From assembly GCF_021442325.1 (NCBI RefSeq), contig NZ_CP087879.1, positions 620,001 through 684,000 on the forward strand: 64,000 nucleotides of DNA, read 5' to 3'. A program made the position numbers and the translations under genes. Origin of the DNA: Agromyces marinus. Lineage in GTDB: Bacteria > Actinomycetota > Actinomycetes > Actinomycetales > Microbacteriaceae. Below the pieces are notes generated by a model that worked only from the letters and a program-made list of their open reading frames with translations, was not told the origin of the DNA and made no database searches. Shown one piece after another: positions 7,514 through 32,528 of the stretch (its first letter is position 1; every line of letters begins with the position of its first letter).

Positions 7514-7515
7514 CG

Positions 7516-14283: not shown

Positions 14284-15033
14284 TCAGCGCTTCGGGCTCG
14301 GTGGGCGGCGTCGCTCCCAGGCGTCGGCGATGTGCGAGCGCATCGCGGCTTCCGCCTCGTCGGGGTCGCCGGTCTCGATGGCCGCGAAGACGCGCTCGTG
14401 CTCCTCGAGCGTCGTCTCGAGGCGGCTGTGCAAATGGAAGCGGTCGCTTTCGCGTGCCTGGTCGAAGAGGATCCCGACGATGTTGACCGCGAGGCGATTC
14501 GCACTCATCTCGCCGACGGCCTGGTGGAACACGACGTCGGCAGCGTTGAACGCCGGCTCGTCTTCGATGGTGTCGCGCATGAGCTGCATTGCGGTACGGA
14601 GGCGCTCGAGGTCCGCCTCGGAACGGTGCGCCGCGGCATCACGAGCGATCACGCCCTCGAGCGACGCGCGGACCGTGCTCAGGTCGTCGAGAATCCCGAG
14701 CGTCGCGTCGTTCGCGACGAGCGCCGACAGCACGGTCGCGTCGACCAGGTTCCAGGATGCCGCGGGCAGCACCTGCGTCCCGCGTCCCTGGGCGACCGTG
14801 ACGAGGCCCTTCTCCTCGAGGCGCTTGACCGACTCGCGGATCACGGTGCGGCTGACGCCGAACTGCTCGCACAGCACGGCCTCGGGCGGAAGCGAGCTTC
14901 CGGGTGCGAGGTCGCCGCGCACGATCGCACTCACGAGATCGGTCACGACCGTCACCCCGAGTCGGGGCGTCCGGGCGCGCGCGGCGATCGTGGGATACGG
15001 GGCGGCGGCATCGGTCGGCATGTGCCACAGCAT
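14284..15033 (-). CDS. FadR-type GntR transcriptional regulator (FCD domain)
   Basis: 249 residues: an N-terminal winged helix (PGSSLPPEAVLCEQFGVSRT, VIRESVKRLEEKGLV) and a C-terminal all-helical FCD ligand domain with the metal-site pattern D...H at FHQAVGEMSANRLA and histidines further on. Members usually repress sugar-acid catabolism and are released by a pathway acid. It is divergent from the long operon starting at 15134 and almost certainly regulates it. ATG at 15033 is used; an ATG at 15021 is also possible. Confidence 0.9.
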   Translation of the reverse strand: MLWHMPTDAAAPYPTIAARARTPRLGVTVVTDLVSAIVRGDLAPGSSLPPEAVLCEQFGVSRTVIRESVKRLEEKGLVTVAQGRGTQVLPAASWNLVDATVLSALVANDATLGILDDLSTVRASLEGVIARDAAAHRSEADLERLRTAMQLMRDTIEDEPAFNAADVVFHQAVGEMSANRLAVNIVGILFDQARESDRFHLHSRLETTLEEHERVFAAIETGDPDEAEAAMRSHIADAWERRRPPSPKR

Positions 15034-15133: not shown

Positions 15134-16285
15134 ATGAAGATCACCGGGTATCGCACCCTGGCTGCGCAGCAGCACTGGCGCCGCGCCATCGGCGACGTCA
15201 ACGGGCACATCGTCGAGGCCGTGACCGAGGTGCCGATCGTCATCCTCGAGACGGATGCCGGCATCGAGGGCGTCGGCGTCGGCTCGCACGCCGACCTCGC
15301 CCGGCTCTTCCCCGCGATCGAGGGCGAGGACCCGCGCAGCGTCGCGGCGCTCTTCGACCGGATGCTCGCCCAGGTGTTCAAGTCGGGGCACGCGGGCGCC
15401 ACCTACGGCGGCATCGCGACGCTCGACGCCGCGATCTGGGACCTCAAGGCGAAGGCCGCCGGCGAGCCGCTCTGGCGGATGCTCGGAGGCCGCGACCGGT
15501 TCGTCCCGGGCTACGCATCAGGACTCGACATCGCGCTCGGCGACGACGAGCTCACCGCGTTCTACGCGGAGTTCGCCGACCGAGGCTTCGTCGCGGGAAA
15601 GCTCAAGGGCGGCCTCGACTTCGACGCCGACCGGCGTCGGCTCGGGATCCTCGCCGACGCCCTGTCGGCGAACACCTCGCGCCCGGGCCTCATGCTCGAT
15701 GCGAACGAGTCCTGGCAGGTCAAGCAGGCCGTGCGCTACGTCAGCGCCCTCGAGGAGCACGTCGACCTGCTCTGGGTCGAGGAGCCCCTGCGCAGGTGGG
15801 ACGCCGTCGGCCACGCTCGGCTGAGTTCGGCCATCCGTGCGGCGGTCGCGACCGGCGAGAACCTCACGGGCGTCGACCAGTTCCGGCCGCTGTTCGAGGC
15901 CGGTGCGCCCGACGTCGTGCAGGCGGGTGCGATCTGGGGCGTGTCGCACATGCACCGCCTCTCGTTCGCCGCGGCCGCACGCGACCTGCCCGTCAGCATC
16001 GTCGGCTACAACGCCAACCCCGCGGTCGCACACGTCATGCCCGCGGTGCCCAACCACCTGACCACCGAGATCCAGGCGCTGGAGTTCGCCGACGGGATGC
16101 TCGTCGACCACGAGTACGCCGACGGGGGCATCGTGCTGAGCGACGAGCCAGGCAGCGGCATCCGCATCGACGAGGCCGCGATCGCGGTCGCGCGACGCGG
16201 CAACGGCTGGGCCGACCCGGCCGGGCCGCACATGCGGCCCATCCGGGCGGGCCTGCGCGTCGTGCTCGACGGGGTCGAGCGATGA
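15134..16285 (+). CDS. Mandelate racemase/muconate lactonizing enzyme family (sugar-acid dehydratase-like)
   Basis: 383 residues of the enolase superfamily. The N-terminal capping domain is followed by a barrel with base residues in KLKGG (K156, K158), metal ligands in DANESW (D189), VEEPL (E216) and GEN (E242), and YNANP near 293. Enzymes of this type abstract the alpha-proton of a carboxylate; most of those in sugar operons dehydrate aldonates to 2-keto-3-deoxy acids. GAAGGAG precedes the ATG at 15134. It opens an eight-gene operon whose later genes (XylX-like enzyme, semialdehyde dehydrogenase) fit a 2-keto-3-deoxypentonate product. Substrate unproven. Confidence 0.85.
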   Translation: MKITGYRTLAAQQHWRRAIGDVNGHIVEAVTEVPIVILETDAGIEGVGVGSHADLARLFPAIEGEDPRSVAALFDRMLAQVFKSGHAGATYGGIATLDAAIWDLKAKAAGEPLWRMLGGRDRFVPGYASGLDIALGDDELTAFYAEFADRGFVAGKLKGGLDFDADRRRLGILADALSANTSRPGLMLDANESWQVKQAVRYVSALEEHVDLLWVEEPLRRWDAVGHARLSSAIRAAVATGENLTGVDQFRPLFEAGAPDVVQAGAIWGVSHMHRLSFAAAARDLPVSIVGYNANPAVAHVMPAVPNHLTTEIQALEFADGMLVDHEYADGGIVLSDEPGSGIRIDEAAIAVARRGNGWADPAGPHMRPIRAGLRVVLDGVER

Positions 16286-17283
16286 GCGCCGTCGACGCGG
16301 CCGGCACGGGCGCCGCGATCCACGGCGAGATCCGTCCCGGCCTGCACCGCGTCCAGGCGCCGCTCGGCGACCGGTTCGTCGCGCTCTACGTGCTCGTCGG
16401 CGACGATTCGGCGCTCCTCGTCGACACGGGCATCCGCGAGTCGATCACCGAGACGCTGCTGCCCTACCTCGACGCCGCGGGCATCCCGCGCGAGCGGCTG
16501 CGCTGGGCCGTGAACACGCACTGCGACTTCGACCACACGGGCGGCAACGGCGCCCTGAAGGCCGCGATCCCGACCGTCTCGATCGTCGCGCACGAACTCG
16601 ACGCCGAGCTCACCGAGGACGTGCAGCGCCTCATCGACGTGCGCTACGGCGAGTTCCGCGACACCGACGGCTTCGACGACCCGCCCGAGACGACCGCGTA
16701 CCTGCGGAGCGTCTCCGACCTGGTGCCCGTCGACGTGCGCGTCACGGGCGGCGAGGAGTTCGACCTCGGCGGGCGCACGGTGCGCGTGCTGCACGTGCCG
16801 GGGCACAGCCCGGGCCACGTCGCCGTGTACGACGAGGCGAACCGCGCCCTGCTCATCGGCGACGCGACCCTCGGAGCTACCGTGCCGTTCGCGGACGGAT
16901 CGCCCGCGTTCCCGCCCACGTACCGCGACACCGACCCGTACGTCGCGAGCCTCACCGCGTTCCGCGACCTCGACGCCGACCTGCTGCTCACCGCGCACTA
17001 CCCGGTGTACGAGGGTGCGGGCGTCGGCGCCTTCCTCGACGAGAGCGAGGCGTACACCGAGCGGGTCGACGCGGTGCTCCTCGCCGTGCTCGGCGCGGCC
17101 GACGGCCCCCGCACGACGCTCGAGCTCGTGCGCGACGCGGGCTCCGAGCTCGGCCCCTGGGGTGCCGACGCGCTCGACTACGCGGTCTTCCCGGTCACCG
17201 GCAACCTCGAGCGGCTCGCCGCGCGCGGCGTCGTCGCCGAGCAGACGGATGCCGCGGGCCGCCGCCGCTGGAGCCTCGCATGA
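16282..17283 (+). CDS. Metallo-beta-lactamase-fold hydrolase
   Basis: 333 residues. The MBL core runs from about 20 to 240: LLVDTG strand, NTHCDFDHTGGN motif, a VPGHSPGH motif holding a metal-binding histidine, LLIGDATLG and a late LLTAHYPVY histidine. The first motif reads HxDxDH instead of the usual HxHxDH. A C-terminal winged-helix-like tail (about 250-333) is present, as in some MBL hydrolases. It overlaps both neighbours by 4 bp. In this operon it could open a lactone or cleave a CoA thioester; the sequence does not decide between them. Confidence 0.8.
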   Translation: MSAVDAAGTGAAIHGEIRPGLHRVQAPLGDRFVALYVLVGDDSALLVDTGIRESITETLLPYLDAAGIPRERLRWAVNTHCDFDHTGGNGALKAAIPTVSIVAHELDAELTEDVQRLIDVRYGEFRDTDGFDDPPETTAYLRSVSDLVPVDVRVTGGEEFDLGGRTVRVLHVPGHSPGHVAVYDEANRALLIGDATLGATVPFADGSPAFPPTYRDTDPYVASLTAFRDLDADLLLTAHYPVYEGAGVGAFLDESEAYTERVDAVLLAVLGAADGPRTTLELVRDAGSELGPWGADALDYAVFPVTGNLERLAARGVVAEQTDAAGRRRWSLA

Positions 17284-18353
17284 GCGCCCGGGTGCGTCTC
17301 GGCGCCGTCGGCGCCGGCTGGTGGGCGACGAGCAACCACTTCCCGATCTTCGCCGCGCGCGAGGACGTCGAGCTCGTCGGCGTCTGCGGCATCGGCCCCG
17401 AGCTCGGCGCCGTGCGCGACCAGTTCGGCTTCGGCATGGCCACGACCGACTACGACGAGCTGCTCGACCAGGGGCTCGACGCGGTCGTCGTCGCGACGCC
17501 GCACGACCTGCACCACCCGCAGGCGGTCGCCGCGATCGAGCGCGGCCTGCACGTGCTCGTCGAGAAGCCCGTCACGCTCGACGCGGCGCAGGGCTGGGAC
17601 CTCGCGGCCAGGGTGCGCGAGCACGGCGTGCACTTCCTCGCGCCCTACGGCTGGAACTACAAGCCGTTCGTCGTTGAGGCCAAGCGCCTCGTCGACGCCG
17701 GGCACCTCGGCGAGATCCAGCACGTGCTCTGCCACATGGCCTCGCCGACGCGCGGCCTCTTCGCGGGCGACACGAACCACATCCGTTCGCTCTGGGACTC
17801 CGAGACCAGCGGCCCCGACCCCCGCACGTGGCAGTCGCCCGCGCGCGGCGGCGGCTACGCGCACGGGCAGATCACCCACTCGAGCGCCCTGCTGTTCTGG
17901 CTGAGCGGCCTGCGCGCGGCATCCGTCATGGGGAAGGTCTCGAACGGCGGTGCGGCGGTCGACCTCTTCGACGCGGCCGTGATCACCTTCGACGGCGGTG
18001 CGCTCGGGTCGCTCTCGGGCGCGGCGACGCTGCCCGACGGCGACCCGTACCAGGTCGACATCCGCATCTTCGGCTCCGAGGGCGTGCTCATGCTCGACAC
18101 CGAGCGCGAGCGTGCGTGGGTGCACCGCTACGACGGCGCCCGCTACGAGATCGAGGTCGAGCCGGGTGCCGGCGCCTACGAGTGCATCGTGCCGCCCAAC
18201 CGGTTCATCGACCTCATCACCGGGGCGAGCACCGAGAACAACTCCGACGTCGAGGTGGCGGCCCGCTCGGTGGAACTGATCGACGCCATGCTGCGCAGCG
18301 CCGCTGCGGGAGGGACCGAAGTGAACGTGCACGACCTGGAGCAGGCAGCATGA
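17280..18353 (+). CDS. Gfo/Idh/MocA family NAD(P)-dependent oxidoreductase
   Basis: 357 residues. The Rossmann domain starts with LGAVGAGWWATSNH, a variant of the dinucleotide fingerprint, and contains the family motif EKPVTLD with the catalytic lysine. The C-terminal mixed sheet domain includes GGGYAHGQITHSSALLFWL, which supplies the second conserved histidine. The family oxidises sugars, inositols or sugar acids. It overlaps the upstream hydrolase and downstream CoA-transferase genes by 4 bp. In a sugar-acid route it would make a ketose or lactone that the other enzymes consume. Confidence 0.88.
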   Translation: MSARVRLGAVGAGWWATSNHFPIFAAREDVELVGVCGIGPELGAVRDQFGFGMATTDYDELLDQGLDAVVVATPHDLHHPQAVAAIERGLHVLVEKPVTLDAAQGWDLAARVREHGVHFLAPYGWNYKPFVVEAKRLVDAGHLGEIQHVLCHMASPTRGLFAGDTNHIRSLWDSETSGPDPRTWQSPARGGGYAHGQITHSSALLFWLSGLRAASVMGKVSNGGAAVDLFDAAVITFDGGALGSLSGAATLPDGDPYQVDIRIFGSEGVLMLDTERERAWVHRYDGARYEIEVEPGAGAYECIVPPNRFIDLITGASTENNSDVEVAARSVELIDAMLRSAAAGGTEVNVHDLEQAA

Positions 18354-19609
18354 CCGGGCACGATGCGGGCGCGCGGGGCGTGCTCGACGGCTACCGCGTG
18401 CTCGACTGCTCGATCGCCATGGCCGGGCCGTTCGCGGCGCAGCGCCTCGGCGACCTCGGCGCCGACGTCATCAAGGTCGAGCCGACCACGGGCGAGTGGC
18501 AGCGCCACGCGGCCGCGGGCGGCGCGGCGGGCAACGAGATCAACGTGTCCTTCCTCTCGCTCAACCGCAACAAGCGCTCGGTCGCGCTCGACCTCAAGTC
18601 CGACGAGGGCAAGGCGGCGCTCCGCGAGCTCGTCGCCGGGGCAGACGTGTTCCTGCAGAACTACCGCCCGGGCGTCGCCGCACGTCTCGGCGTCGACTAC
18701 GCGTCGCTCCGCGAGATCAACCCGTCGATCGTCTACGTGTCGATCTCGGGCTACGGCGAGGACGGCCCCTACCGCGACCGTCCCGGGCAGGACCTGCTGC
18801 TGCAGGCCATGTCGGGCGCCATGTACTCGGCCGGGCGCGACGGCGACGAGCCCTCGCCCGCCGGCCAGTACCTCGCCGACGCGATCACCGCGTCGACCGC
18901 CTTCGAGGGCGTGCTCGCCGCGCTGCTGCACCGCGAGCGCACGGGCGAGGGCCAGCTCGTGACGGTCAACATGCTCGACGCGCTCACGACGCTCCAGATG
19001 CAGGAGCTCTCGGTGTTCACGGTCGGCCGCAAGGCCCAGCAGCGGTCGGCCGAGCCGCACGCGCACGTGTACATCCGCGCGCCGTACGGCGTGTTCGAGA
19101 CGAGCGACGGCTACGTCGCCCTCGCGTTCGCCGACCTGCACGAGCTCGGCCGCCTCATCGAGGAGCCCGCGTTCGAGGGCTGGTCGAGCGAGGTCGAGGG
19201 ATGGACCCGCCGCGACGAGATCCACGCGAAGACCGCCGCCAGGCTGCGCGGGAACACGGCCGCGCACTGGATCGAGGTGCTCGGCGGCGCCGGCATGTGG
19301 ATCGGCCCCGTGAACGACTACGCCGGCCTCGTGGACGACCCGCAGGTCGTGCACAACGGCACGTTCGTCGAGTACGAGCATCCGACCGAGGGCCTCGTGA
19401 AGACCCCGGGCTTCCCGTACCGCTTCTCGGCGACCCCGCCGCGCATCGACCGAGGTGCGCCGCGCGTCGGCGAGCACACGCGCGAGGTGCTGCGCGAGGC
19501 CGGGTTCGACGAGGCTGCGATCGACGCGCTGCTCGCCTCGGGCGCGGCGCGGGCGACGGAGGCGGCGCCTGCCGCGCTCGAGCCCGCACCGGTCGCCGCG
19601 AGCGCCTGA
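18350..19609 (+). CDS. CaiB/BaiF family CoA-transferase (class III)
   Basis: 419 residues with the class III pattern: RVLDCSIAMAGPFAAQRLGD at the start, GADVIKVE, SLNRNKRSVALDLKS and the catalytic aspartate expected in the GQDLLLQAMSG region. These enzymes move CoA from a donor thioester to a carboxylic acid. The last 20 residues are an Ala/Pro tail. It starts in the stop of the oxidoreductase gene and its stop overlaps the next gene (TGATG). Together with the enoyl-CoA hydratase two genes on, it shows that at least one intermediate is handled as a CoA thioester. Confidence 0.88.
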   Translation: MTGHDAGARGVLDGYRVLDCSIAMAGPFAAQRLGDLGADVIKVEPTTGEWQRHAAAGGAAGNEINVSFLSLNRNKRSVALDLKSDEGKAALRELVAGADVFLQNYRPGVAARLGVDYASLREINPSIVYVSISGYGEDGPYRDRPGQDLLLQAMSGAMYSAGRDGDEPSPAGQYLADAITASTAFEGVLAALLHRERTGEGQLVTVNMLDALTTLQMQELSVFTVGRKAQQRSAEPHAHVYIRAPYGVFETSDGYVALAFADLHELGRLIEEPAFEGWSSEVEGWTRRDEIHAKTAARLRGNTAAHWIEVLGGAGMWIGPVNDYAGLVDDPQVVHNGTFVEYEHPTEGLVKTPGFPYRFSATPPRIDRGAPRVGEHTREVLREAGFDEAAIDALLASGAARATEAAPAALEPAPVAASA

Positions 19610-20763
19610 TGGCCCGGTACGTCGGCCTCACGTGGGATCACCCGCGTGGGCGGCTCGCGCTCGAGCGCGCGGCCGAGCAGGCGACGGATGCCGCGGGCGA
19701 ACGCCTCATCGAGTGGCACGTGCACTCGCTCGAGGGCTTCGAGTCGAGCCCGATCGAGGAGCTCGCCGAGCGCTACGACGTGATCGTGCTCGACCATCCG
19801 CACCTCGGCGACGCCCTCGCGGGCGACGCGATCCGGCCGCTCGACGAGGTGTTCGAGGCATCCTTCCTCGACGAGGTGCGCGCCGGCGCGGTCGGCCCGA
19901 GCACGGCGTCGTACACGCTCGACGGCCGCTTCTGGGCGCTCCCGCTCGACGCGGCGACGCAGGTCGCCGTGCGCGTGCCCGAGCTCGTGCCCGACGCGCC
20001 GACCACGTGGGGCGAGGTCCGCGAGCTCGCCGCGACCGCGCCCGTCGCGCTGAGCCTCGCCGGGCCGCACGCGTTCCTCTCGTTCGCGTCGACCTGCGTC
20101 GCGCTCGGCGCGGAGGCCGGCATCGTCCCCGCGACCGAGCCCGGCGCCGGGCTCGTCGACCGCGCCGTCGGCGCCGAGGCGTTCGCGCTCATGGCCGAGC
20201 TCGCGGCCCGCATGCCCGAGGGCGCCGCCGACCTCAACCCGATCGGCCTGCTCGAGCGCATGCGTCGCGACCGCGACATCGCGTACATCCCGCTCGTCTA
20301 CGGGTACGTGAACTACGCCTCCGGCCCGGGTGCGCTGCGCTTCGACGATGCGCCCGCGGCGACAGCGGGCGGCCGCCGCGGCTCGACCATCGGCGGCACG
20401 GGCATCGCGATCACCACACGCTGCCGCCCCGATGCCGACCTCGTCGCCCACCTCGCGGGCCTGCTCGACCCCGAGGTGCAGCGCACGTTCATCCCCGGGC
20501 ACGCCGGCCAGCCCGGCCTGCGCAGCGCCTGGATCGACGACGCGGTCAACGCGGCATCCGGCGCCTTCTACCGCGCCACGCTCGAGACGATCGACGACGC
20601 CTGGGTGCGTCCGCGCGTGCCGCGATACATCCGCTTCCAGTCCGAGGCATCCGCGATCCTCCGTGACGCGCTGCTCGCGCCGGGCGCCGCGCGCGCCGAC
20701 GCGGCGCTCGACGACCTCGACCGGGCGTTCGACGCCCTCGCCCGCGAAAGGAGCGTGCTCTGA
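19609..20763 (+). CDS. Solute-binding-protein-like protein without signal peptide
   Basis: 384 residues resembling the sugar-binding (type I, MalE-like) family: a YDVIVLDHPHLGDAL strand-helix near the start, the mid-protein GRFWALPLDAATQVA, DAPTTWGEVRELA and the late PGHAGQPGLRSAW. Unlike true binding proteins it has neither a signal peptide nor a lipobox; the first residues are MARYVGLTWDHPRGR. No ABC permeases lie nearby. It is fused into the operon by TGATG overlaps on both sides, so it is a real gene of the pathway, probably a cytoplasmic ligand-binding or co-opted protein. Confidence 0.7.
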   Translation: MARYVGLTWDHPRGRLALERAAEQATDAAGERLIEWHVHSLEGFESSPIEELAERYDVIVLDHPHLGDALAGDAIRPLDEVFEASFLDEVRAGAVGPSTASYTLDGRFWALPLDAATQVAVRVPELVPDAPTTWGEVRELAATAPVALSLAGPHAFLSFASTCVALGAEAGIVPATEPGAGLVDRAVGAEAFALMAELAARMPEGAADLNPIGLLERMRRDRDIAYIPLVYGYVNYASGPGALRFDDAPAATAGGRRGSTIGGTGIAITTRCRPDADLVAHLAGLLDPEVQRTFIPGHAGQPGLRSAWIDDAVNAASGAFYRATLETIDDAWVRPRVPRYIRFQSEASAILRDALLAPGAARADAALDDLDRAFDALARERSVL

Positions 20764-21542
20764 TGCAGCCCGCCAGCCCGAACATCCGCCTCGAGGTCGA
20801 CGGCCACGTCGCGATCATCACGATCGACCGGCCCGAGAAGCTCAACTCGGTCACGCCCGAGATGTCGTACGCGCTCGTCGACGCGATCGAGTGGGCGGAT
20901 GCCGCAGCCGAGGTCCGCGCGATCGTGCTCACGGGCGCGGGGGAGCGCGCGTTCTGCGCGGGCTCCGACATCCGCACGCTCGACACGTACGAGACGCCGT
21001 GGGAGTTCCGCAACCGCACCGACTACTGCGACGCGATCCGCGCCGCCCGCAAACCCGTGATCGCCGCGATCAACGGGTACGCGTTCGGCGGCGGCCTCGA
21101 GACCTCGCTCATCTGCGACATCCGCCTCGCCTCGACGACCGCGAGCTTCGCGGCGCCCGAGATCAAGCTCGGCTGGATCGGCGGCGGCGGCATGTCGACG
21201 TTCCTCGCGCACTCGATCGGCCCGTCGAACGCGGCCGTCATGCTCATGACGGGCGACCCGATCGACGCCGAGACGGCCCTGCGCTGGGGCCTCGTGAGCG
21301 AGCTCGTCGAGCCCGGGCGCCTGCTCGAGCGCGCGGTCGAGCTCGCCCGCGTCATCGCCTCGCGCCCGCCCATCGCGGCCGAGACGGCCAAGGCGAACCT
21401 GCGCGCCGCGTTCAACATGACGCAGGACGAGGCCATGCGCTACGAGCGCGACCTGCAGACCGTGACCTTCGCCACCGAGGACGCGCACGAGGGCCGGGCG
21501 GCCTTCGCCGAGAAGCGCGCGGGCGTCTTCCACCGGCGCTGA
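20763..21542 (+). CDS. Enoyl-CoA hydratase/isomerase family protein
   Basis: 259 residues with the crotonase fold: DRPEKLNSVTPEM, the oxyanion-hole pieces AFCAGSDIR and NGYAFGGGLE, and APEIKLGWIGGGGMSTFLA. The second catalytic glutamate of classical hydratases (GGxxE in the loop after NGYAFGGG) is present as GGGLE, and the position in KLGWIGG is glycine-rich, so hydratase, isomerase or another crotonase reaction is possible. It overlaps the previous stop by 1 bp. With the CoA-transferase it forms the thioester branch of the operon. Confidence 0.87.
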   Translation: MQPASPNIRLEVDGHVAIITIDRPEKLNSVTPEMSYALVDAIEWADAAAEVRAIVLTGAGERAFCAGSDIRTLDTYETPWEFRNRTDYCDAIRAARKPVIAAINGYAFGGGLETSLICDIRLASTTASFAAPEIKLGWIGGGGMSTFLAHSIGPSNAAVMLMTGDPIDAETALRWGLVSELVEPGRLLERAVELARVIASRPPIAAETAKANLRAAFNMTQDEAMRYERDLQTVTFATEDAHEGRAAFAEKRAGVFHRR

Positions 21543-21589
21543 CACGCACCAGACCGAACCGGACCGACGAGACAGGATCCACCGGAACC

Positions 21590-22771
21590 ATGACGAGCAC
21601 CACCACGACCTGGCCCGACGCCCGCGGCATCCTGCCCGACGACGCCGGCCGCGCGACCCTCGTCGGCCGCGCCTGGACGCCGGCCGGCCCGAGCGTGGTC
21701 GTACTGCGGCCCGAGGGCGTCGTCGACGTCTCGCGGGCGTTCCCCACGATGCGCGCGCTCACCGAGCACGCCGACCCGATCGCGGCCCTCGCCGCCGCCG
21801 ACGGTCCCGTGCTCGGCTCGCTCGACGACCTCGTCGCCAACACCCCGCCCGAGACGCGCGACCCGGCGCGCCCGTGGCTGCTCTCGCCGATCGACCTCCA
21901 CGTCGTGAAGGCGGCCGGAGTGACGTTCCCGGTGTCGATGCTGGAGCGCGTCATCGAGGAGCGCGCGCGCGGCGACCAGGACGCGGCCGCTTCGATCCGC
22001 GCCGAGATCCTCGCCACCATCGGCGGATCGCTCGACGCGCTGAAGCCCGGCTCCGACGAGGCCGCCGCGCTCAAGGCACTGCTCATCGAACGCGGCTGGT
22101 GGAGCCAGTACCTCGAGGTCGGCATCGGCCCCGACGCCGAGGTCTTCACCAAGGCGCCCGTGCTCGCGACCGTCGGCGCGCTCGTCGACGTCGGAGTGCA
22201 CCCCGCTTCGCAGTGGAACAACCCCGAGCCCGAGGTCGTGCTCGTCGTGAGCTCGGCCGGTCGCATCGTGGGCGCGAGCCTCGGCAACGACGTGAACCTG
22301 CGCGACGTCGAGGGCCGGAGCGCCCTGCTGCTCGGCAAGGCGAAGGACAACAACGCATCGGCCTCGCTCGGCCCGTTCATCCGCCTGTTCGACGACGGCT
22401 ACGGCATCGCCGACCTGCGCGCATCGGTCGTGCGCCTCTCGATCGACGGCGAGGAGGGCTACCGCCTCGACGGCACGAGCGAGCTCGCGCGCATCAGCCG
22501 CGACCCGGTCGACCTCGTCGGCCAGGTCGTCGGTGCGCACCACCAGTACCCCGATGGCTTCGTGCTCTACCTCGGCACGATGTTCGCCCCGGTCGAGGAC
22601 CGCGACGTGCCCGGCCGCGGGTTCACGCACCGCGACGGCGACCTCGTCCGAATCGCCGAACCGCGCCTCGGTACGCTCGTGAACCGGGTGCGCTCGACCT
22701 CCGACGCCGAACCGTGGACCTTCGGCATCGACGCCCTCTGCCGATCCCTGTCCGCGCGCGGCCTGCTCTGA
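21590..22771 (+). CDS. FAH-superfamily enzyme, XylX-like 2-keto-3-deoxypentonate dehydratase
   Basis: 393 residues, longer than typical fumarylacetoacetate hydrolases and of the XylX length class. Motifs include EVFTKAPVLATVGA, SQWNNPEPEVVLVVSS with the metal-binding glutamates, GNDVNLRDVEGRSALLL and AHHQYPDGFVLYLGTMF. In the Weimberg pathway XylX converts 2-keto-3-deoxy-xylonate to 2-oxoglutarate semialdehyde, the substrate of the next gene's enzyme. The ATG at 21590 lies 47 bp after the crotonase gene. The assignment rests on length, motifs and the neighbouring dehydrogenase. Confidence 0.8.
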   Translation: MTSTTTTWPDARGILPDDAGRATLVGRAWTPAGPSVVVLRPEGVVDVSRAFPTMRALTEHADPIAALAAADGPVLGSLDDLVANTPPETRDPARPWLLSPIDLHVVKAAGVTFPVSMLERVIEERARGDQDAAASIRAEILATIGGSLDALKPGSDEAAALKALLIERGWWSQYLEVGIGPDAEVFTKAPVLATVGALVDVGVHPASQWNNPEPEVVLVVSSAGRIVGASLGNDVNLRDVEGRSALLLGKAKDNNASASLGPFIRLFDDGYGIADLRASVVRLSIDGEEGYRLDGTSELARISRDPVDLVGQVVGAHHQYPDGFVLYLGTMFAPVEDRDVPGRGFTHRDGDLVRIAEPRLGTLVNRVRSTSDAEPWTFGIDALCRSLSARGLL

Positions 22772-22814
22772 ACCGGCGCCCGCCGCCCCGCACGATCCCG
22801 ACCCGGAGAAGACC

Positions 22815-24320
22815 ATGCTCAGCAGCACGAACCCCCGCACCGGCGAGAGCCGCCCGACCGGCATCGCCGCCTGCACGCCCGATGAGGCCGATCGCGTGAT
22901 CCGGGCGGCGGATGCGGCGTTCGAGGACGCCTCAGCCGAGGACCGGCTCTGGCGTGCCGGCCTGCTCGACGCGCTCGCCGACGCGCTCGACGCGAACCGC
23001 GACGAACTCGCCGCGATCGCCGACCGCGAGACCGGGCTCGGCCTGCCGCGGCTCACGGGCGAGGTGGGCCGCTCGAGCTTCCAGTTCCGGCTGTTCGCGG
23101 ACGCCGTCCGCGAAGGCTCCCACCTCGAGGCGACCATCGACCGGGCCGCGACGACGCCGCTCGGCCCGCAGCCCGAGATCCGACGGATGCTCGTGCCCAT
23201 CGGCACCGTCGCGGTGTTCGGTTCGAGCAACTTCCCGTTCGCGTTCTCGGTCGCCGGCGGCGACACCGCGTCGGCGCTCGCCGCGGGCAACGCGGTCGTG
23301 CTGAAGGCGCACTCATCGCACCTCGAGACCTCGCGCGCGTCGCACGCGGTGCTGCGCGACGCGGCCGCCGCGTACGGCGCCCCCGACGGGCTCATCGGCA
23401 TCGTGTACGGCACCGAGGCCGGACGGGTGCTCGTGTCGCACCCGCTCGTGCAGGCGGTCGGGTTCACGGGATCGCTCGGTGGCGGCCGTGCGCTCATGGA
23501 CCTCATCGACGAGCGCCCCCGGCCGATCCCCTTCTACGGCGAGCTGTCGAGCCTGAACCCGCTGATCATCACGCCGGCTGCGGCCGTGGCCAGGGGCGAG
23601 GCGATCGCCGACGGGCTGTACGGCTCGTTCACGCTCGGCAGCGGCCAGTTCTGCACGAAGCCGGGCGTGGCGTTCGTGCCCGTCGGCGAGGCGGGCGACG
23701 CGCTCGTCGCGCGGATCGCGGCGAAGGCGGCGGATGCCGCGTCGGCCGTGCTCCTCAACGAACGCATCGCCGCCTCGTTCGACGAGATCCGCGACCGGGT
23801 GACCGCCGGCGGCACGGTCGACGTGCTCGCGCAGGGCGTCGTCGAGCCGGGTGCGGGCTTCACCGCAGCGCCGACGGTGCTCGCCACGACCGCGGCGGAG
23901 CTGACCGCCGAGGCGACCGAGGAGGTCTTCGGGCCGCTCATCGTCATCGTGCGCTACCGCGAGGACGCCGAGATCGTGCGCGCGCTCGACGCCGTGCCCG
24001 ACTCGTTGACGGCGACCGTGCACAGCGAGGCATCCGACGCGGGCGCGGTCGCAGCGCTCGTGCGCGAGCTCGCTCCGCGCGTCGGGCGGCTCGTCTTCGA
24101 CGGGTACCCGACGGGCGTTCGCGTCTCGTGGGGCCAGCACCACGGCGGTCCGTGGCCGTCGACGAACTCGCAGCACACGTCGGTCGGCGTGAGCGCCATC
24201 CGACGGTTCCTCCGGCCGCTCGCCTGGCAGGATGCGCCGGAGGCGCTGCTGCCCGCGGAACTGCGCGACGGGTACGAGGGGATCCCGCGACGGGTCGACG
24301 GGGTGCTCCAGCTGGGCTGA
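22815..24320 (+). CDS. Aldehyde dehydrogenase, 2-oxoglutarate-semialdehyde type
   Basis: 501 residues. The catalytic cysteine is in GSGQFCTKPG (about residue 279) and the general base in FYGELSSLNP (about 242), both with the wording typical of 2-oxoglutarate (2,5-dioxovalerate) semialdehyde dehydrogenases rather than of general ALDHs; VFGSSNFPFAFS is the cofactor-side motif. It would oxidise the XylX-like enzyme's product to 2-oxoglutarate, feeding the citric acid cycle. The ATG follows GGAGAAG. It ends the operon, before a GC-rich hairpin and the convergent kinase gene. Confidence 0.88.
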   Translation: MLSSTNPRTGESRPTGIAACTPDEADRVIRAADAAFEDASAEDRLWRAGLLDALADALDANRDELAAIADRETGLGLPRLTGEVGRSSFQFRLFADAVREGSHLEATIDRAATTPLGPQPEIRRMLVPIGTVAVFGSSNFPFAFSVAGGDTASALAAGNAVVLKAHSSHLETSRASHAVLRDAAAAYGAPDGLIGIVYGTEAGRVLVSHPLVQAVGFTGSLGGGRALMDLIDERPRPIPFYGELSSLNPLIITPAAAVARGEAIADGLYGSFTLGSGQFCTKPGVAFVPVGEAGDALVARIAAKAADAASAVLLNERIAASFDEIRDRVTAGGTVDVLAQGVVEPGAGFTAAPTVLATTAAELTAEATEEVFGPLIVIVRYREDAEIVRALDAVPDSLTATVHSEASDAGAVAALVRELAPRVGRLVFDGYPTGVRVSWGQHHGGPWPSTNSQHTSVGVSAIRRFLRPLAWQDAPEALLPAELRDGYEGIPRRVDGVLQLG

Positions 24321-27896: not shown

Positions 27897-28868
27897 ATGA
27901 AGCGTCACCCCCTGCGACCCGGGGTCGACCCGACCGAACTCGGCTTCGGTGCCGCCCAGCTCGGCAACCTCGCCCGCGAGACGACCGACGCCGAGGCTCG
28001 CGCGGCCGTCGACGCGGCATGGGACGCCGGCATCCGCTACTTCGACACGGCCCCCCACTACGGGCTCGGGCTCAGCGAACGCCGCCTCGGCGAGGCGCTG
28101 CGCGAGCGTCCCCGCGACGAGTACGTGCTCTCGACGAAGGTCGGGCGACTCCTCGTGCCCAGCGGATACCCCGAGGGCGCCATGGACGACCAGGGCTTCG
28201 CGGTGCCGGCGACGCTGCGTCGCGAGTGGGACCTCAGCCGCGACGGCATCCGCCGCTCGATCGACGCGAGCCTCGAGCGCCTCGGGCTCGACCGGATCGA
28301 CATCGCCTACCTGCACGACCCCGACGACCACGGCGAGCAGGCGCACGCCGAGGCCGTCCCGGCGCTCATCGAACTGCGCGAGGAGGGCGTCGTCGGTGCG
28401 GTCGGGGCCGGGATGAACCAGTCCGCGATGCCCGCCGAGTTCGTCCGCCGCCACGACGTCGACGTCATCATGCTCGCCGGCCGGTACACGCTCCTCGAAC
28501 AGGGCGCGCTCGACGACCTGCTCCCCGCCGCGCTCGAGCGCGGCGTCGGCATCGTCGCGGCCGCGGTCTACAACTCCGGCCTGCTCTCCAGGCCGCGGCC
28601 GGCAGCGGATGCCACCTACGACTACGCACCCGCGCCTGCGGCGATCCTCGAGCGCGTCGACGCGCTCGCCGATGTGTGCGACGAGTTCGGCATCGCCCTG
28701 CCCGAGGCCGCGCTCGCCCACCCCCTGCGGCACCCCGCCGTCGTGTCGGTCGTCGTCGGGATGCGAACGCCCGAGCAGGTGCACGGAACCGCCGCGCGGT
28801 TCGAGGCGCAGATCCCCGACGCCTTCTGGGAGGCGCTCACGCGACGGGGGCTCCTGCGCGATGCGTGA
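27897..28868 (+). CDS. Aldo/keto reductase, L-fucose/D-threo-aldose 1-dehydrogenase-like
   Basis: 323 residues of the AKR barrel: GFGAAQLGNL at the start, YFDTAPHYG with catalytic Asp and Tyr, LSTKVGRLL with the catalytic lysine, and YLHDPDDH. This wording matches the AKR group that oxidises C1 of L-fucose and related aldoses to the lactone. GGAGG precedes the ATG. The lactonase, FAH hydrolase, SDR and mutarotase of the same route are 0.8-3.6 kb downstream, beyond a FadR-type gene on the other strand. Confidence 0.85.
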   Translation: MKRHPLRPGVDPTELGFGAAQLGNLARETTDAEARAAVDAAWDAGIRYFDTAPHYGLGLSERRLGEALRERPRDEYVLSTKVGRLLVPSGYPEGAMDDQGFAVPATLRREWDLSRDGIRRSIDASLERLGLDRIDIAYLHDPDDHGEQAHAEAVPALIELREEGVVGAVGAGMNQSAMPAEFVRRHDVDVIMLAGRYTLLEQGALDDLLPAALERGVGIVAAAVYNSGLLSRPRPAADATYDYAPAPAAILERVDALADVCDEFGIALPEAALAHPLRHPAVVSVVVGMRTPEQVHGTAARFEAQIPDAFWEALTRRGLLRDA

Positions 28869-28872
28869 GGAC

Positions 28873-29631
28873 TCAGCCCTCGTCGGGGGCCTCGGCGGGC
28901 AGCTCGTCGACGCGACTCGCGGTGAACTCCTCGACGCCGAGCACGTGGACGCTCATGCGGATGCGGGCCCGGTCGGGATCGCCAGCTTCGAGCGCCTCGA
29001 GGATCGCACGGTGCTCGCGCTGCGTGTCGTGCACGGCTCCGCCCTGATGGATGGCGCGCCACAGCCGCGCACGCGCCGTTCGGCTCACGAGCGCCTCGAT
29101 GATCGCCGCGAAGGCCGGGTTGCCGCTCGCCGTCGCGATCAGCCGATGGAACTCGGTGTCGACGTCGATGGTCGCCTCGAGGTCGATCTGGCCGTCGACC
29201 TCCAGGATCGCCTCGCCGCGGTCGAGGATGCCGCGCGCCCGCGCGAGCTCGTCCTCGGTGATCCGCAGCGCCGCGTGCGCCGCGGCCTCGGGTTCGAGCA
29301 CGCGCCGCACGCCGAGCAGGTGCACGCTGTTCTCGGGACTCTGCAGTTCGGCGAGCATCCCGAGGGGCTCGAGCAACTGGCCGGGTTCGAGCGAGGTCAC
29401 GTACGTGCCGTCGCCCTGCCTGGTCTCCAGCACGCCGAGGACCACGAGCGCCCGGACGCCCTCGCGGAGCGGGCCCCGCGAGACGCCGAGCCGCGCGCCG
29501 AGTTCGCGTTCGACCGGCAGGCGCGAGCCCGCCATGAGTTCACCGCTCGTGATCATCTCGCGGATGCCGTCGATCACGACGTTCGAGCGGGAGCGGATCG
29601 GAGCGCCGTCGGGCGCGGGCGTGCTGGCCAT
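28873..29631 (-). CDS. FadR-type GntR transcriptional regulator (FCD domain)
   Basis: 252 residues from the ATG at 29631 (a GTG two codons upstream is possible). The N-terminal winged helix contains SRLPVERELGARLGVSRGPL and REGVRALVVLGVL; the FCD domain has the DTEFHRLIATASGN metal-site helix and later histidines (EHRAIL, VHVLGVE). It is convergent with the aldo-keto reductase and divergent from the lactonase operon, so it probably controls the fucose-type genes. It is a second, distinct FadR-type regulator in the sugar region. Confidence 0.9.
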   Translation of the reverse strand: MASTPAPDGAPIRSRSNVVIDGIREMITSGELMAGSRLPVERELGARLGVSRGPLREGVRALVVLGVLETRQGDGTYVTSLEPGQLLEPLGMLAELQSPENSVHLLGVRRVLEPEAAAHAALRITEDELARARGILDRGEAILEVDGQIDLEATIDVDTEFHRLIATASGNPAFAAIIEALVSRTARARLWRAIHQGGAVHDTQREHRAILEALEAGDPDRARIRMSVHVLGVEEFTASRVDELPAEAPDEG

Positions 29632-29655
29632 GGGCACAGCATAGACGAGCAGGCC

Positions 29656-29673
29656 GTAATCATCAGATCTTTC
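29656..29673. promoter_or_regulatory. GTAATCA / GATCTTTC boxes upstream of the lactonase operon
   Basis: GTAATCA (29656-29662) and GATCTTTC (29666-29673) repeat, with shorter spacing, the boxes found beside the first FadR-type gene. They lie in the 65-bp divergent region between regulator and lactonase. Confidence 0.4.
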
Positions 29674-29696
29674 GACTTGGATACCGAGGAGGCCGC

Positions 29697-30575
29697 ATGA
29701 GCGGGATCATCGACGCGCACCAGCACGTCTGGAGCCTCGAGCGCGCGGAGTACCGCTGGCTGACGCCCGAGGCCGGCGTGCTCTACCGCGACTTCGAGAT
29801 GGCGGAGGTCCTGCCGTCGTTCGCGCGGGCGGGCGTGACCGGCACCGTGCTCGTCCAGTCCGCCGACAACGACGACGACACCGAGCACATGTTCGCCGTC
29901 GCCGAGACCGAGCCGCGCGTGCTCGGGGTGGTCGGCTACGTCCCGCTGCACGAACCCGAGCGGGCGGCATCCCGCCTCGAGGAACTCCGCGGCAGGGTGC
30001 GCTTCTGCGGCATCCGCAACCTCATCCACGACCGACCCGACCCGGGCTGGCTCCGGCGCGACGACGTCGACGAGGGGCTCGGCATCCTCGAGGCCGCCGG
30101 CGTGCCGTTCGACGTCGTCGGCGTGCTGCCCGAGCACCTCGAAGCCGTGCTCGAGGTCTCGGACCGGCATCCCGACCTCGACCTCGTGCTCGACCACCTC
30201 AACAAGCCGCCGATCGGCGCCGGCGACCACGAGCCGTGGGCCTCGCTCATCGCGAAGGTCGCCGAGAACCCGCGCGTGCACGCCAAGGTCTCGGGCCTGT
30301 ACTCCGCCGTCGGCGACCCCGCCGACTGGAGCGTCGAGACCGTCCGGCCCATGTTCGACCACGCGCTCGCCGTCTTCGGGCCCGACCGCCTCATGTACGG
30401 CGGCGACTGGCCGGTCTCGCTCATCGCCGGCGGCTACGACCGGGTGTTCGACGGCATCGACGAACTCCTGTCCGGCCTCGACCCCCGCGAGCGCGGCGCG
30501 ATCCTCGCGGGGACCGCTCGCCGCTTCTACTCGCTCCCCGACGCACCCCCCGAGACGGAAGGCACCACCCCATGA
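29697..30575 (+). CDS. Amidohydrolase family 2, L-fuconolactonase-like
   Basis: 292 residues of the amidohydrolase-2 barrel: IIDAHQHVWSLE with the first histidines, a middle VLDHLNKPP histidine strand and YGGDWPVSL with the catalytic Asp. This is the pattern of sugar lactonases such as L-fucono- and L-rhamnono-lactonase, which hydrolyse the lactone made by the aldose dehydrogenase. GGAGG precedes the ATG. Its stop overlaps the FAH gene (ATGA), and it heads a four-gene operon. Confidence 0.87.
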   Translation: MSGIIDAHQHVWSLERAEYRWLTPEAGVLYRDFEMAEVLPSFARAGVTGTVLVQSADNDDDTEHMFAVAETEPRVLGVVGYVPLHEPERAASRLEELRGRVRFCGIRNLIHDRPDPGWLRRDDVDEGLGILEAAGVPFDVVGVLPEHLEAVLEVSDRHPDLDLVLDHLNKPPIGAGDHEPWASLIAKVAENPRVHAKVSGLYSAVGDPADWSVETVRPMFDHALAVFGPDRLMYGGDWPVSLIAGGYDRVFDGIDELLSGLDPRERGAILAGTARRFYSLPDAPPETEGTTP

Positions 30576-31426
30576 CCGACACGTTCACCCTCGCCCGACT
30601 CGGCGCCCCGGGCCGCGAGGTCCCCGTCGTGCGCGTCGGCGACCGCGTCCTCGACGCGCGCGCCCTCACCGCCGACTACGACGCCGCGTTCTTCGCCGGC
30701 GACGGGGTCGCCCGGGTGCGCGACGCGCTCGACGCACTGCCCGCGTTCGACGGCGACGTCTCGCGCGTCGGGGCACCGATCGCACGCCCCGGCAAGATCG
30801 TCTGCATCGGCCTGAACTACCGCGACCACGCCGAGGAGACCGGTGCCGCGCTTCCCGAGGAGCCCGTCATCTTCATGAAGGACCCGTCGACGATGGTCGG
30901 GCCGAACGACGACGTGCTGATCCCGCGGAACTCGACGAAGACCGACTGGGAGGTCGAGCTCGGGGTCGTCATCGGCTCGACGGCGCGCTACCTCGACTCG
31001 CCAGACGACGCGCTCGCGTGCGTGGCCGGGTACGCCGTCTCGCACGACGTCTCCGAGCGCGAGTTCCAGCTCGAACGGGGCGGCCAGTGGGACAAGGGCA
31101 AGAGCTGCGAGACCTTCAACCCGTTCGGTCCCGATCTCGTTCCGGCCGACCAGGTCGCCGACCCGCAGCAGCTGGGCCTGCGGCTGTGGGTCAACGGCAC
31201 GCTGCACCAGGACGGCAACACCTCGAACATGCTCTTCAGCGTGGCGCACGTGATCTGGTACCTCAGCCAGTTCATGGTGCTGAACCCCGGTGACGTCATC
31301 AACACCGGCACCCCGGCGGGCGTCGCGCTCGGCCTGCCCGGCACGCCCTACCTGCGCGCGGGCGACACGGTCGAACTCGAGATCGACGGACTCGGGCGTG
31401 CGGGCCAGCGGATGGTGCAGGCATGA
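30572..31426 (+). CDS. FAH-family hydrolase, 2,4-diketo-3-deoxy-L-fuconate hydrolase-like
   Basis: 284 residues. The FAH fold shows CIGLNYRDHAEETG, FMKDPSTMVGPNDDV, the metal glutamates in DWEVELGVVIG and the late GTPAGVALGL. In non-phosphorylative L-fucose breakdown this family cleaves 2,4-diketo-3-deoxy-L-fuconate into pyruvate and lactate. It overlaps the lactonase and SDR genes by 4 bp each. The shorter length and motifs separate it clearly from the XylX-like enzyme at 21590. Confidence 0.86.
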   Translation: MTDTFTLARLGAPGREVPVVRVGDRVLDARALTADYDAAFFAGDGVARVRDALDALPAFDGDVSRVGAPIARPGKIVCIGLNYRDHAEETGAALPEEPVIFMKDPSTMVGPNDDVLIPRNSTKTDWEVELGVVIGSTARYLDSPDDALACVAGYAVSHDVSEREFQLERGGQWDKGKSCETFNPFGPDLVPADQVADPQQLGLRLWVNGTLHQDGNTSNMLFSVAHVIWYLSQFMVLNPGDVINTGTPAGVALGLPGTPYLRAGDTVELEIDGLGRAGQRMVQA

Positions 31427-32190
31427 GCGCGGGCGAGTTCGACGGGCTCGTCGCCGTCGTCACGGGCGGAGCCTCGGGCATCGGCCTCGCCGCGGCCGAG
31501 GCCCTGGCCGCACGCGGCGCACGCGTCGCGGTGCTCGACCGATCCGTCGACGGCCTGACCGAGTCGCTGGCCGGGTTCGCCGCCGACGTCGCGGACCGCG
31601 CGTCCGTCTCCGCCGCGGTCGACGCGATCGCGGAACGCTTCGGCGGGATCGACATCCTCGTCAACAACGCGGGCATCAGCGCCGTCGGCACGGTCGAGGA
31701 GAACGACGACGAGGAATGGGCCCGCGTGCTCGACGTCAACGTGATCGGCATGGCCCGCGTCACCGCCGCGGCGCTGCCGTGGCTGCGACGCTCGGAGGCG
31801 GCATCCGTCGTCAACCTCTGCTCGATCGCGGCCCTGAACGGCCTCCCGCAGCGCGCGCTCTACTCGGCGTCCAAGGGTGCCGTGCTCGCGCTCACCTACG
31901 CGATGGCGACCGACCACGTCGGCGAGGGCGTCCGCGTGAACTGCGTGAGCCCGGCGACCGTCGCGACCCCGTTCGTCGAACGCATGCTGCAGGGCTTCGC
32001 CGACCCCGTCGCCGAGCGGGCCGCGCTCGACGCGCGCCAGGCGACCGGCCGCATGGTCACTCCGGAAGAGGTCGCCGGGGCGATCGTGTACCTCGCGAGC
32101 CCGTCGTCCGGGTCGACCACGGGCACCGCGCTCGAGATCGACGGCGGCATCACCCACCTCCGCCCGCGACCGGCCGGGGCGCGCGCATGA
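31423..32190 (+). CDS. SDR oxidoreductase, 2-keto-3-deoxy-L-fuconate dehydrogenase-like
   Basis: 255 residues of classical SDR: TGGASGIGLAAAEALA, NNAGIS, a serine in LCSIAALNG, YSASKG with Tyr-Lys, and SPATVATPF. It would oxidise the C4 hydroxyl of 2-keto-3-deoxy-L-fuconate to the diketo acid that the FAH hydrolase cleaves. The role rests on the operon: lactonase, FAH hydrolase, this gene and mutarotase overlap one another. Confidence 0.84.
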   Translation: MSAGEFDGLVAVVTGGASGIGLAAAEALAARGARVAVLDRSVDGLTESLAGFAADVADRASVSAAVDAIAERFGGIDILVNNAGISAVGTVEENDDEEWARVLDVNVIGMARVTAAALPWLRRSEAASVVNLCSIAALNGLPQRALYSASKGAVLALTYAMATDHVGEGVRVNCVSPATVATPFVERMLQGFADPVAERAALDARQATGRMVTPEEVAGAIVYLASPSSGSTTGTALEIDGGITHLRPRPAGARA

Positions 32191-32528
32191 GCGGGCGACC
32201 GCGCGTGCGGCGCCTCGCCTCGGTCATCGGCCTGCCGGCCGAGCACCGCGAGGAATACGAGCGGCTGCACGCCGACGTCTGGCCGAAGGTGCTCGAGCGG
32301 CTGACCGCGAGCAACATCCGCAACTACTCGATCTACCGTCACGGCGAGGTGCTCTTCGCCTACATGGAGTACGTCGGCGACGACCTCGAGGCCGACATGG
32401 CCGCGATCGCCGCCGACCCCGAGACGCAGCGCTGGTGGTCGGTGTGCGAGCCGCTGCAGCGGCCGTTCGCCGAACGCGCGGAGGGCGAGTGGTGGATGGA
32501 GGTCCCGGAGGTCTTTCACCTGGACTGA
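32187..32528 (+). CDS. L-rhamnose/L-fucose mutarotase family (RhaM/FucU-like)
   Basis: 113 residues with the RhaM-type ferredoxin-like fold: EEYERLHADVWPKVLERL near the start with the conserved His, IRNYSIYRHG, and WWSVCEPLQRPF late. The enzyme interconverts alpha and beta anomers of a deoxyhexose and supplies the form used by the aldose dehydrogenase. The ATG overlaps the SDR stop, and it closes the operon. Confidence 0.87.
   Translation: MSGRPRVRRLASVIGLPAEHREEYERLHADVWPKVLERLTASNIRNYSIYRHGEVLFAYMEYVGDDLEADMAAIAADPETQRWWSVCEPLQRPFAERAEGEWWMEVPEVFHLD

Follow-up and report, generated by a model that had tools for sequence, protein, structure and literature searches.

A conserved operon of Agromyces marinus suggests a coenzyme A-dependent route for a sugar-derived acid with a leaderless binding-protein-fold partner

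The window analysed here, a stretch of 64,000 nucleotides from the 3.2-Mb, single-contig genome of Agromyces marinus, carries an operon of eight co-directional genes on the forward strand, in which a coenzyme A (CoA) transferase and a crotonase stand among genes of sugar-route families. As a sequence-only reading of the window had stated, the genes are tightly packed: neighbours overlap at five junctions (4, 4, 4, 1 and 1 bp), and the last two genes each follow after less than 50 bp (47 and 43 bp). The first gene of the operon codes for an MR/MLE protein of the enolase superfamily that lacks the His-Asp dyad (15134-16285; Pfam MR_MLE_C, E 2.7e-36), followed by an MBL-fold hydrolase (16282-17283; 4-bp overlap with the MR/MLE gene; Lactamase_B, E 9e-31), a Gfo/Idh/MocA dehydrogenase (17280-18353; 4-bp overlap with the MBL gene; GFO_IDH_MocA, E 4e-20) and a CaiB-type (family III) CoA-transferase (18350-19609; 4-bp overlap; CoA_transf_3, E 4e-108, 362 bits against a cut-off of 23.3). 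Next come a protein with the fold of a solute-binding protein (SBP) and no leader, termed SBPL here (19609-20763; 1-bp overlap with the CoA-transferase gene), a crotonase (20763-21542; 1-bp overlap with the SBPL gene; ECH_1, E 1.7e-61), an FAH-superfamily protein that by homology is an XylX-like D-2-keto-3-deoxypentonate dehydratase (21590-22771; 47 bp after the crotonase gene) and an aldehyde dehydrogenase (22815-24320; 43 bp after the FAH gene; Aldedh, E 9e-49). Divergent to the operon, on the reverse strand, lies a GntR/FCD transcription regulator (14284..15033; GntR, E 1.7e-19; FCD, E 6e-24), which is likely to regulate it; a GntR gene also precedes the MR/MLE gene in many loci of the window type.

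Seven of the family assignments made in the sequence-only reading are supported by Pfam and the binding-protein-like one by a family profile and a structure model, the part that did not stand being the MR/MLE protein as a standard dehydratase, as judged by its residues. The residues of the MBL metal motif HxDxDH are kept in 18 of 19 sequences, the remaining one being gapped, and this protein is a candidate aldonolactonase. The Gfo/Idh protein, 68-91% identical to its counterparts in 18 window-type loci, is a candidate sugar 1-dehydrogenase. For the CoA-transferase the nearest PDB match is 9br6, a succinate--HMG CoA-transferase (E 2e-67). The FAH protein scores 24.7 bits against a cut-off of 23.9 for Pfam FAA_hydrolase and matches 9kkt, named only as FAH family protein, with E 6e-122 over 380 residues, and the 2-keto-3-deoxy-D-arabinonate dehydratase 2q18 with E 2e-13. 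The aldehyde dehydrogenase stays under the cut-off of all 25 NCBIfam models listed, and among the matches listed no operon protein reaches a curated NCBIfam cut-off, so that family names alone give no substrates.

A search of bacterial genomes with SBPL confirmed at least 492 candidates, and we compared the 80 best loci, a set that for this reason leans to the crotonase type. Genes were labelled by blastp at fixed score cut-offs, with annotated records and the window as sources of the labelled library, and absence of a gene means that no label was given in the stretch of up to 10 kb on each side of the cassette. Labels were most frequent for the crotonase (78 of 80 loci) and the CoA-transferase (77), followed by SDR (68), FAH (54), a DUF4432 mutarotase-like protein (51), Gfo/Idh (46), MR/MLE (31), aldehyde dehydrogenase (26) and MBL (17), and CoA-transferase, SBPL and crotonase genes lie side by side on one strand in 71 loci. 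Two of the three loci without a CoA-transferase belong to genomes that hold a 72-73% identical copy elsewhere; in the third, a metagenome-assembled genome, the best match is 37%. Identity to the window protein amounts to 63-95% in 76 of 80 other crotonases and 61-95% in 76 of 81 other CoA-transferases. At the positions that we take to be catalytic, the Glu pair of the crotonase is present in 81 of 81 sequences, and the CoA-transferase has Asp in 77 of 82, the window protein included. The window CoA-transferase thus carries both marks of family III, a score above the Pfam cut-off and the catalytic Asp, and the window crotonase both marks of an enoyl-CoA hydratase, membership of the ECH family and the Glu-Glu pair. 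Judged by these labels, CoA-transferase, SBPL and crotonase are the most conserved unit of the cassette. The sequence-only reading had proposed an oxidative pentonate route whose sugar-derived acid passes through a CoA thioester, and would have given this up if homologous operons lacked the CoA genes; we found the opposite, the CoA genes being commoner than any sugar-route gene. We also rejected the idea that they are passengers, given their 77 and 78 labels and the contiguous core. A CoA-dependent route for a sugar-derived acid is well supported by the comparison of loci.

The same gene order recurs in other genomes and across phyla, which argues that the arrangement is not due to chance. The cassette was seen in Actinomycetota, Alphaproteobacteria and Burkholderiales, and SBPL matches occur on 145 plasmid records. 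SBPL is present in 48 of 299 Microbacteriaceae-type genomes (31 of 85 genera; two of six genomes in the window's genus) and in seven of 199 genomes of the Sphingomonas family, i.e. the family of Sphingomonas mali (G691), a patchy spread of the kind that an accessory catabolic trait would show. Among the matches listed, the best-scoring named relatives of SBPL are from Agromyces. Two front ends were found ahead of the core. The form of the window has MR/MLE, MBL and Gfo/Idh, and five of its loci (L042, L046-L049) have genes of a sugar ATP-binding cassette (ABC) transporter directly ahead of MR/MLE and fucose-type genes on the downstream side. The other form has Gfo/Idh, a xylose-isomerase-like protein, DUF4432 and SDR together with Rbs- or Ugp-type ABC transporters, and occurs in rhizobia, Variovorax, Pseudosulfitobacter and others. 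The core is constant between the two forms and the FAH protein mostly so. The window copy is without the ABC genes present in its relatives, and a single homologue of their binding protein (38%) turned up in the genome, next to a second cassette described below. A third subtype (L032, L077, L088) has SBPL ahead of the CoA-transferase, an SDR and a crotonase that is more remote (L077 and L088, 33-34%), with an SMP-30 lactonase-like gene in L032 and L088.

SBPL scores 20.2 bits in Pfam, under the cut-off of 27. A profile of its family matched sugar-binding proteins in the PDB (trehalose- and maltose-binding proteins; LpqY, E 5e-14), and its AlphaFold (AF2) model (predicted local distance difference test score 94.5) has the fold of an ABC solute-binding protein and matches sugar SBPs, with template modelling scores (query) of 0.66-0.80 in the 50 Foldseek hits listed. 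The start codon nearest to the conserved TWxxPRG motif lies a median of seven and at most 24 codons upstream in 80 of 80 loci, and no more than 16 in 78 of them, while leader-like stretches are seen (by eye) at the N-termini of three transport SBPs encoded in these clusters. Neither these distances nor two Bacteroidota records give SBPL an export signal and a partner permease: in the clusters of Persicobacter and Rufibacter a RhaT-type symporter is present, while the gene tables, which may be incomplete, annotate no ABC permease. Many other loci carry sugar ABC genes nearby, which come with their own leader-bearing SBP. In an alignment that combines the window protein with those of 55 among the 80 loci (56 sequences; L112 was excluded because its match extended into a stop) 61 residues are invariant, which seems high for a binding protein. 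The sequence-only reading had noted a binding-protein-like gene in the operon; it is indeed part of the cassette and tied to the CoA-transferase, whereas a role in transport was rejected, as there is no room for a leader and the Bacteroidota clusters have no annotated permease. SBPL would rather be a former sugar-binding protein that works inside the cell as a component of the pathway. On a plasmid of Microvirga ossetica (L040, 12986-14158) a distant SBPL relative (29%) lies beside two mannonate-dehydratase-like genes with no annotated CoA-transferase, and may work with other partners.

We next consider the dehydration step. In the alignment of the MR/MLE protein with talarate/galactarate dehydratase (PDB 2pp0) Gly replaces both the His and the Asp of the dyad, which we take to be catalytic in that enzyme. 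Of 34 sequences, 33 have Gly where the His would be, the Lys residues of the KxK motif are kept in 34 and 33, and most metal-ligand positions are kept as well. With the dyad gone we ruled out a standard acid-sugar dehydratase of the mandelate racemase subgroup, and the dehydratase role that the sequence-only reading had given this protein has to be revised. An IlvD/EDD protein was found neither by motif, which recovered two known proteins as positive control, nor by blastp among the open reading frames of 84 loci and the window, genes elsewhere in the genomes lying outside this search; window and loci thus showed no IlvD/EDD and no MR/MLE aldonate dehydratase with an intact active site. As the MR/MLE protein lacks the dyad and is labelled in just 31 of 80 loci, CoA-transferase and hydratase are the better candidates for the dehydration, and we propose the crotonase as aldonyl-CoA dehydratase. 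The second half of the operon resembles the end of a Weimberg pathway: an FAH-family D-2-keto-3-deoxypentonate dehydratase is present by homology, the aldehyde dehydrogenase is proposed to be a 2-oxoglutarate-semialdehyde dehydrogenase, a specificity deduced from its context, and the two fit a conversion of D-2-keto-3-deoxypentonate to 2-oxoglutarate. According to PMC7374468, characterised D-2-keto-3-deoxypentonate dehydratases are annotated as FAH and the L enzymes as DHDPS family, and membership of the operon protein in the FAH rather than the DHDPS family points to a D-pentose.

A sister group of SBPL, 32-41% identical, goes with a CoA-transferase and a MaoC protein, whose hydratase fold is unrelated to that of crotonases. 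Labels for CoA-transferase, SBPL and MaoC occur together in 11 of 11 Microbacteriaceae regions (fetched out of 27 genomes with a match to the second SBPL type) and in all four Sphingomonas-family regions fetched, while 21 of 22 close Microbacteriaceae loci (L127-L148) have the order CoA-transferase-SBPL-crotonase. Two unrelated hydratase folds in one slot suggest that the conserved need is acyl-CoA hydration or dehydration. Crotonases use 3S-hydroxyacyl-CoA and MaoC proteins 3R-hydroxyacyl-CoA, and C3 is 3S in D-xylonate and 3R in L-fuconate; these preferences would fit a crotonase acting with D-xylonate and a MaoC protein acting with L-fuconate. An L-fuconate-dehydratase-like gene is found in eight of the 11 Microbacteriaceae MaoC regions and other fucose-type genes in two more. 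The genome of the window holds one such cassette (L044, C1:368001-388000), starting at C1:378133, with genes for CoA-transferase, SBPL, MaoC, LacI, an L-fuconate-dehydratase-like protein, GntR, MR/MLE and RraA, and with a sugar ABC binding protein nearby. Related clusters occur in Roseibium, Thalassospira, Ponticoccus and S. meliloti, with fucose genes some 10-20 kb from the cassette in the latter, and the MaoC type extends to the Bacteroidota (Persicobacter, Rufibacter). A lead to published data through locus tags for the S. meliloti copy was dropped, since two of the tags are those of an ABC transporter unrelated to it and the rest yielded no information about this locus. The MaoC-type clusters L183, L184 and L164 hold two CoA-transferase genes and a second, different leaderless SBP-like protein that adjoins Gfo/Idh (17439-18671, 17676-18803 and 15770-16939, respectively), a pairing seen in the Bacteroidota records and in Sphingomonas-family regions.

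L-fucose genes adjoin or lie near crotonase cassettes, too. In the window an L-fucose-type gene set at 27897..32528 on the forward strand comprises open reading frames, named by eye, for an AKR, a GntR (reverse strand), an amidohydrolase, a small FAH, an SDR and an L-rhamnose-mutarotase-like protein; the AKR also adjoins the operon in L042 and L046-L049, as does the amidohydrolase in four of these five. Further clues to the substrate come from linked glycosidases. A GH141-like beta-helix family comprises 21 proteins in 20 loci (19 among the 80, plus L042), and two of them, tested against BT_1002 (PDB 5mqp), gave E 1.9e-44 and 2.9e-46. At the positions matching BT1002 D523 and D564, mapped with a numbering offset of five deduced from the alignment, Asp is found in 20 and 18 of 21 sequences, respectively, the other sequences being gapped there, as the end of the locus truncates them. 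PMC10154630 describes the GH141 founder BT1002 as freeing 2-O-methyl-D-xylose-alpha-1,3-L-fucose from chain A of the pectin rhamnogalacturonan II (RG-II) and GH139 BT0984 as acting on 2-O-methyl-L-fucose in chain B. Among 199 Sphingomonas-family genomes nine have a GH141-like gene, seven have SBPL and six have both, i.e. the gene is found in six of seven SBPL genomes versus three of 192 others (Fisher p 7e-9, uncorrected for kinship), or in four of five versus three of 192 if the prior positives G691 and G701 are left out. In five of the six pairs the two genes lie within ~20 kb of each other, in the sixth ~130 kb apart. A domain search with GH141_M in 13 proteobacterial genomes and one plasmid matched eight of 14, fewer than by full-length comparison. 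Other enzymes linked to the cassettes are GH28-like, GH78 and GH2 (beta-glucuronidase-like, below cut-off) and, at MaoC-type loci, GH106 and GH127; a separate beta-helix protein occurs in five Streptomyces loci. The GH141-like linkage and the glycosidase neighbours would point to methylated RG-II sugars as substrates. Plausibly, the crotonase cassette takes the methylated xylose and neighbouring genes the fucose, and the MaoC cassette takes 2-O-methyl-L-fucose.

Taking these findings together, we tentatively read the operon as oxidative, CoA-dependent breakdown of an aldopentose with D-xylose configuration that would be beyond the usual xylonate dehydratases, most likely 2-O-methyl-D-xylose from RG-II, a reading that we hold at slightly less than even confidence. 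What the sequences show are the genes, their families, catalytic residues and conservation, the missing leader and the linkage to GH141-like and L-fucose genes; each reaction, its place in the route, the methyl group and what SBPL does are our inference. In this scheme C1 would first be oxidised by Gfo/Idh, or in other lineages by an SDR with the DUF4432 mutarotase-like protein, and the lactone would be opened by a lactonase such as the MBL protein. The aldonate would then be loaded onto CoA by the CaiB-type CoA-transferase with SBPL, and the crotonase would take water from the aldonyl-CoA across C2-C3. CoA would be handed to the next aldonate and the resulting 2-methoxy enol ether hydrolysed to methanol and 2-keto-3-deoxypentonate, possibly by SBPL. 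Finally, FAH would dehydrate 2-keto-3-deoxypentonate to 2-oxoglutarate semialdehyde, which the aldehyde dehydrogenase would oxidise to 2-oxoglutarate, and the sister MaoC cassette would use the same chemistry for 2-O-methyl-L-fucose. On chemical grounds, metal-dependent dehydratases, which bind the O2 atom, are expected to handle a 2-O-methyl aldonate poorly; dehydration of this acid would give an enol ether, unable to tautomerise, and a CoA thioester would make the alpha proton acidic enough for a crotonase. SBPL is proposed as enol-ether hydrolase because it is the sole unassigned member of the core and a hydrolase is needed. The wider proposition, that an SBP-derived cytoplasmic enzyme acts with a CoA-transferase and either dehydratase fold to strip the 2-O-methyl group as methanol via CoA-thioester dehydration and subsequent hydrolysis of the 2-methoxy enol ether, strikes us as rather unlikely.

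Several observations weigh against the assignment to 2-O-methyl-D-xylose, its weak points being the enol-ether step, loci without FAH or aldehyde dehydrogenase, and additional genes. We know of no direct precedent for enol-ether hydrolysis by an SBP fold. A GH141-like gene is missing from the examined DNA around the cassette in 61 of the 80 loci, and the genome of the window has no GH141_M match; moreover, GH141 also includes a xylanase and endo-fucanases, so that the neighbours may differ in activity from BT1002. FAH is unlabelled in 26 and aldehyde dehydrogenase in 54 of the 80 loci. In 11 proteobacterial loci (L083, L093, L099, L100, L104, L106, L109, L111, L114, L119, L123) and three further regions glyoxylate-reductase-like and D-glycerate 3-kinase-like genes join the cassette, genes that are superfluous to the proposed scheme, and of these 11 loci seven are without FAH and all are without a labelled aldehyde dehydrogenase. 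On the side of the sister cassette, two of six short (4-kb) loci of the second type (L149, L151) are without a MaoC label, L-fucose-specific gene labels were found neither in L181 nor in the four Sphingomonas-family MaoC regions, and in two of the latter an IlvD/EDD gene, one of the two recovered as positive control, lies ~5-6.5 kb from the cassette.

The alternative that survives best is a CoA-dependent dehydration of an unmodified pentonate, D-xylonate or D-lyxonate, by the same steps minus the methyl group, which we consider unlikely. Here the 2-hydroxy-enoyl-CoA would tautomerise unaided to 2-keto-3-deoxypentonyl-CoA and the CoA-transferase would recycle CoA, so that no novel enol-ether step is required; the Weimberg end is in place with FAH and aldehyde dehydrogenase, and the lack of an IlvD/EDD gene in 84 loci and the window is also in keeping with it. 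On the other hand, it leaves the GH141-like linkage, the adjacency of L-fucose genes and the need for SBPL unexplained, and a xylose isomerase scores over its cut-off in 19 of 19 crotonase-type Microbacteriaceae genomes, suggesting that plain D-xylose is already served and is an unlikely reason for the operon, a count that covers crotonase-type genomes only, with no cassette-free comparison group, which in turn weakens the case for the methylated sugar. The glyoxylate-reductase-like and D-glycerate 3-kinase-like genes of the 11 loci, seven of them without FAH, would be accounted for by a retro-aldol reaction, in which the crotonase splits the aldonyl-CoA at C2-C3 into (methoxy)glycolyl-CoA and D-glyceraldehyde, the latter being converted via D-glycerate to 3-phosphoglycerate. 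The hydratase Glu pair in all 81 crotonases and the FAH gene beside the cassette in 54 of 80 loci make this quite doubtful. A different sugar of RG-II or pectin, for instance D-apiose, seems similarly improbable as the substrate. Apiose is an RG-II sugar (PMC12168206), the linked GH28-like, GH2, GH78 and GH106 enzymes fit pectin generally, and the tertiary 3-OH of apionyl-CoA would be removable by a crotonase, but an FAH and aldehyde dehydrogenase end expects linear D-2-keto-3-deoxypentonate, and the parallel version beside L-fucose genes would go unexplained. A plain Weimberg-type pathway with MR/MLE as dehydratase and the CoA genes as passengers or for another purpose is most improbable: every non-CoA gene does belong to a Weimberg-like family, but the CoA genes are the most conserved and the MR/MLE gene is dispensable and codes for a protein without the dehydratase dyad.

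Compared with known systems, the operon shares with the Weimberg D-xylose branch the sugar dehydrogenase at the start and the FAH-family D-2-keto-3-deoxypentonate dehydratase and aldehyde dehydrogenase at the end, whereas CoA-transferase, SBPL and crotonase replace the usual xylonate dehydratase. In carnitine metabolism the CoA-transferase CaiB stands beside CaiD, a crotonase that hydrates or dehydrates the acyl-CoA, and CoA is passed from the product to the next substrate; the operon shows the same pairing of a CaiB-type CoA-transferase with a crotonase, but differs in its sugar context and SBPL, and scores 142 bits against a cut-off of 413 for the L-carnitine CoA-transferase equivalog. MqnA and MqnD are cytoplasmic enzymes with an SBP fold, and SBPL would resemble them in combining a binding-protein fold with chemistry in the cytoplasm, while differing in that it stems from the sugar-SBP group. 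A deoxyribonate route of Klebsiella michiganensis (PMC6365646) likewise has a sugar acid proposed as CoA thioester, but relies, in the text available, on a proposed CoA-synthetase, hydroxyacyl-CoA dehydrogenase and thiolase, and this text contains neither "enoyl-CoA" nor "solute-binding"; within the open-licence literature no other relevant paper was found on sugars being catabolised by way of CoA. The depolymerisation of RG-II in Bacteroides thetaiotaomicron has its counterpart in the GH141-like enzymes that adjoin the cassette, possibly freeing 2-O-methyl-D-xylose-L-fucose, but the accessible sections of PMC10154630 describe cleavage of the polymer and not the fate of the methylated monosaccharides. 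No description of bacterial use of 2-O-methyl-D-xylose or 2-O-methyl-L-fucose was found in the open-licence literature, and the carbon-source fitness study PMC9007349 has nothing on the cassette in its available part.

Two further features of the window were noted by eye. At 6491-12358 two tandem proteins with similar N-termini are followed by a P-loop NTPase-like protein of 1019 residues and a small protein, possibly a conflict or signalling NTPase cluster, and at 58806-59917 a helix-turn-helix protein overlaps a nucleotidyltransferase-like protein, which could be a toxin-antitoxin-like pair.

The enzyme families of the operon are known, whereas the pathway and its cytoplasmic SBP-fold partner appear to be undescribed, and the route appears to be widespread among bacteria. 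If the proposal is true, a CoA-thioester branch would be added to oxidative sugar catabolism, and the family of at least 492 confirmed SBPL candidates, now often annotated as ABC substrate-binding proteins although they do not seem to be exported, would gain a likely function. The cassettes would provide the missing bacterial route for both RG-II methyl sugars, 2-O-methyl-D-xylose and 2-O-methyl-L-fucose, and, as the releasing enzymes for both are already described, would close a gap in the breakdown of this pectin, with a hydrolytic opening of a sugar methyl ether that needs no oxygen, P450 or cobalamin.

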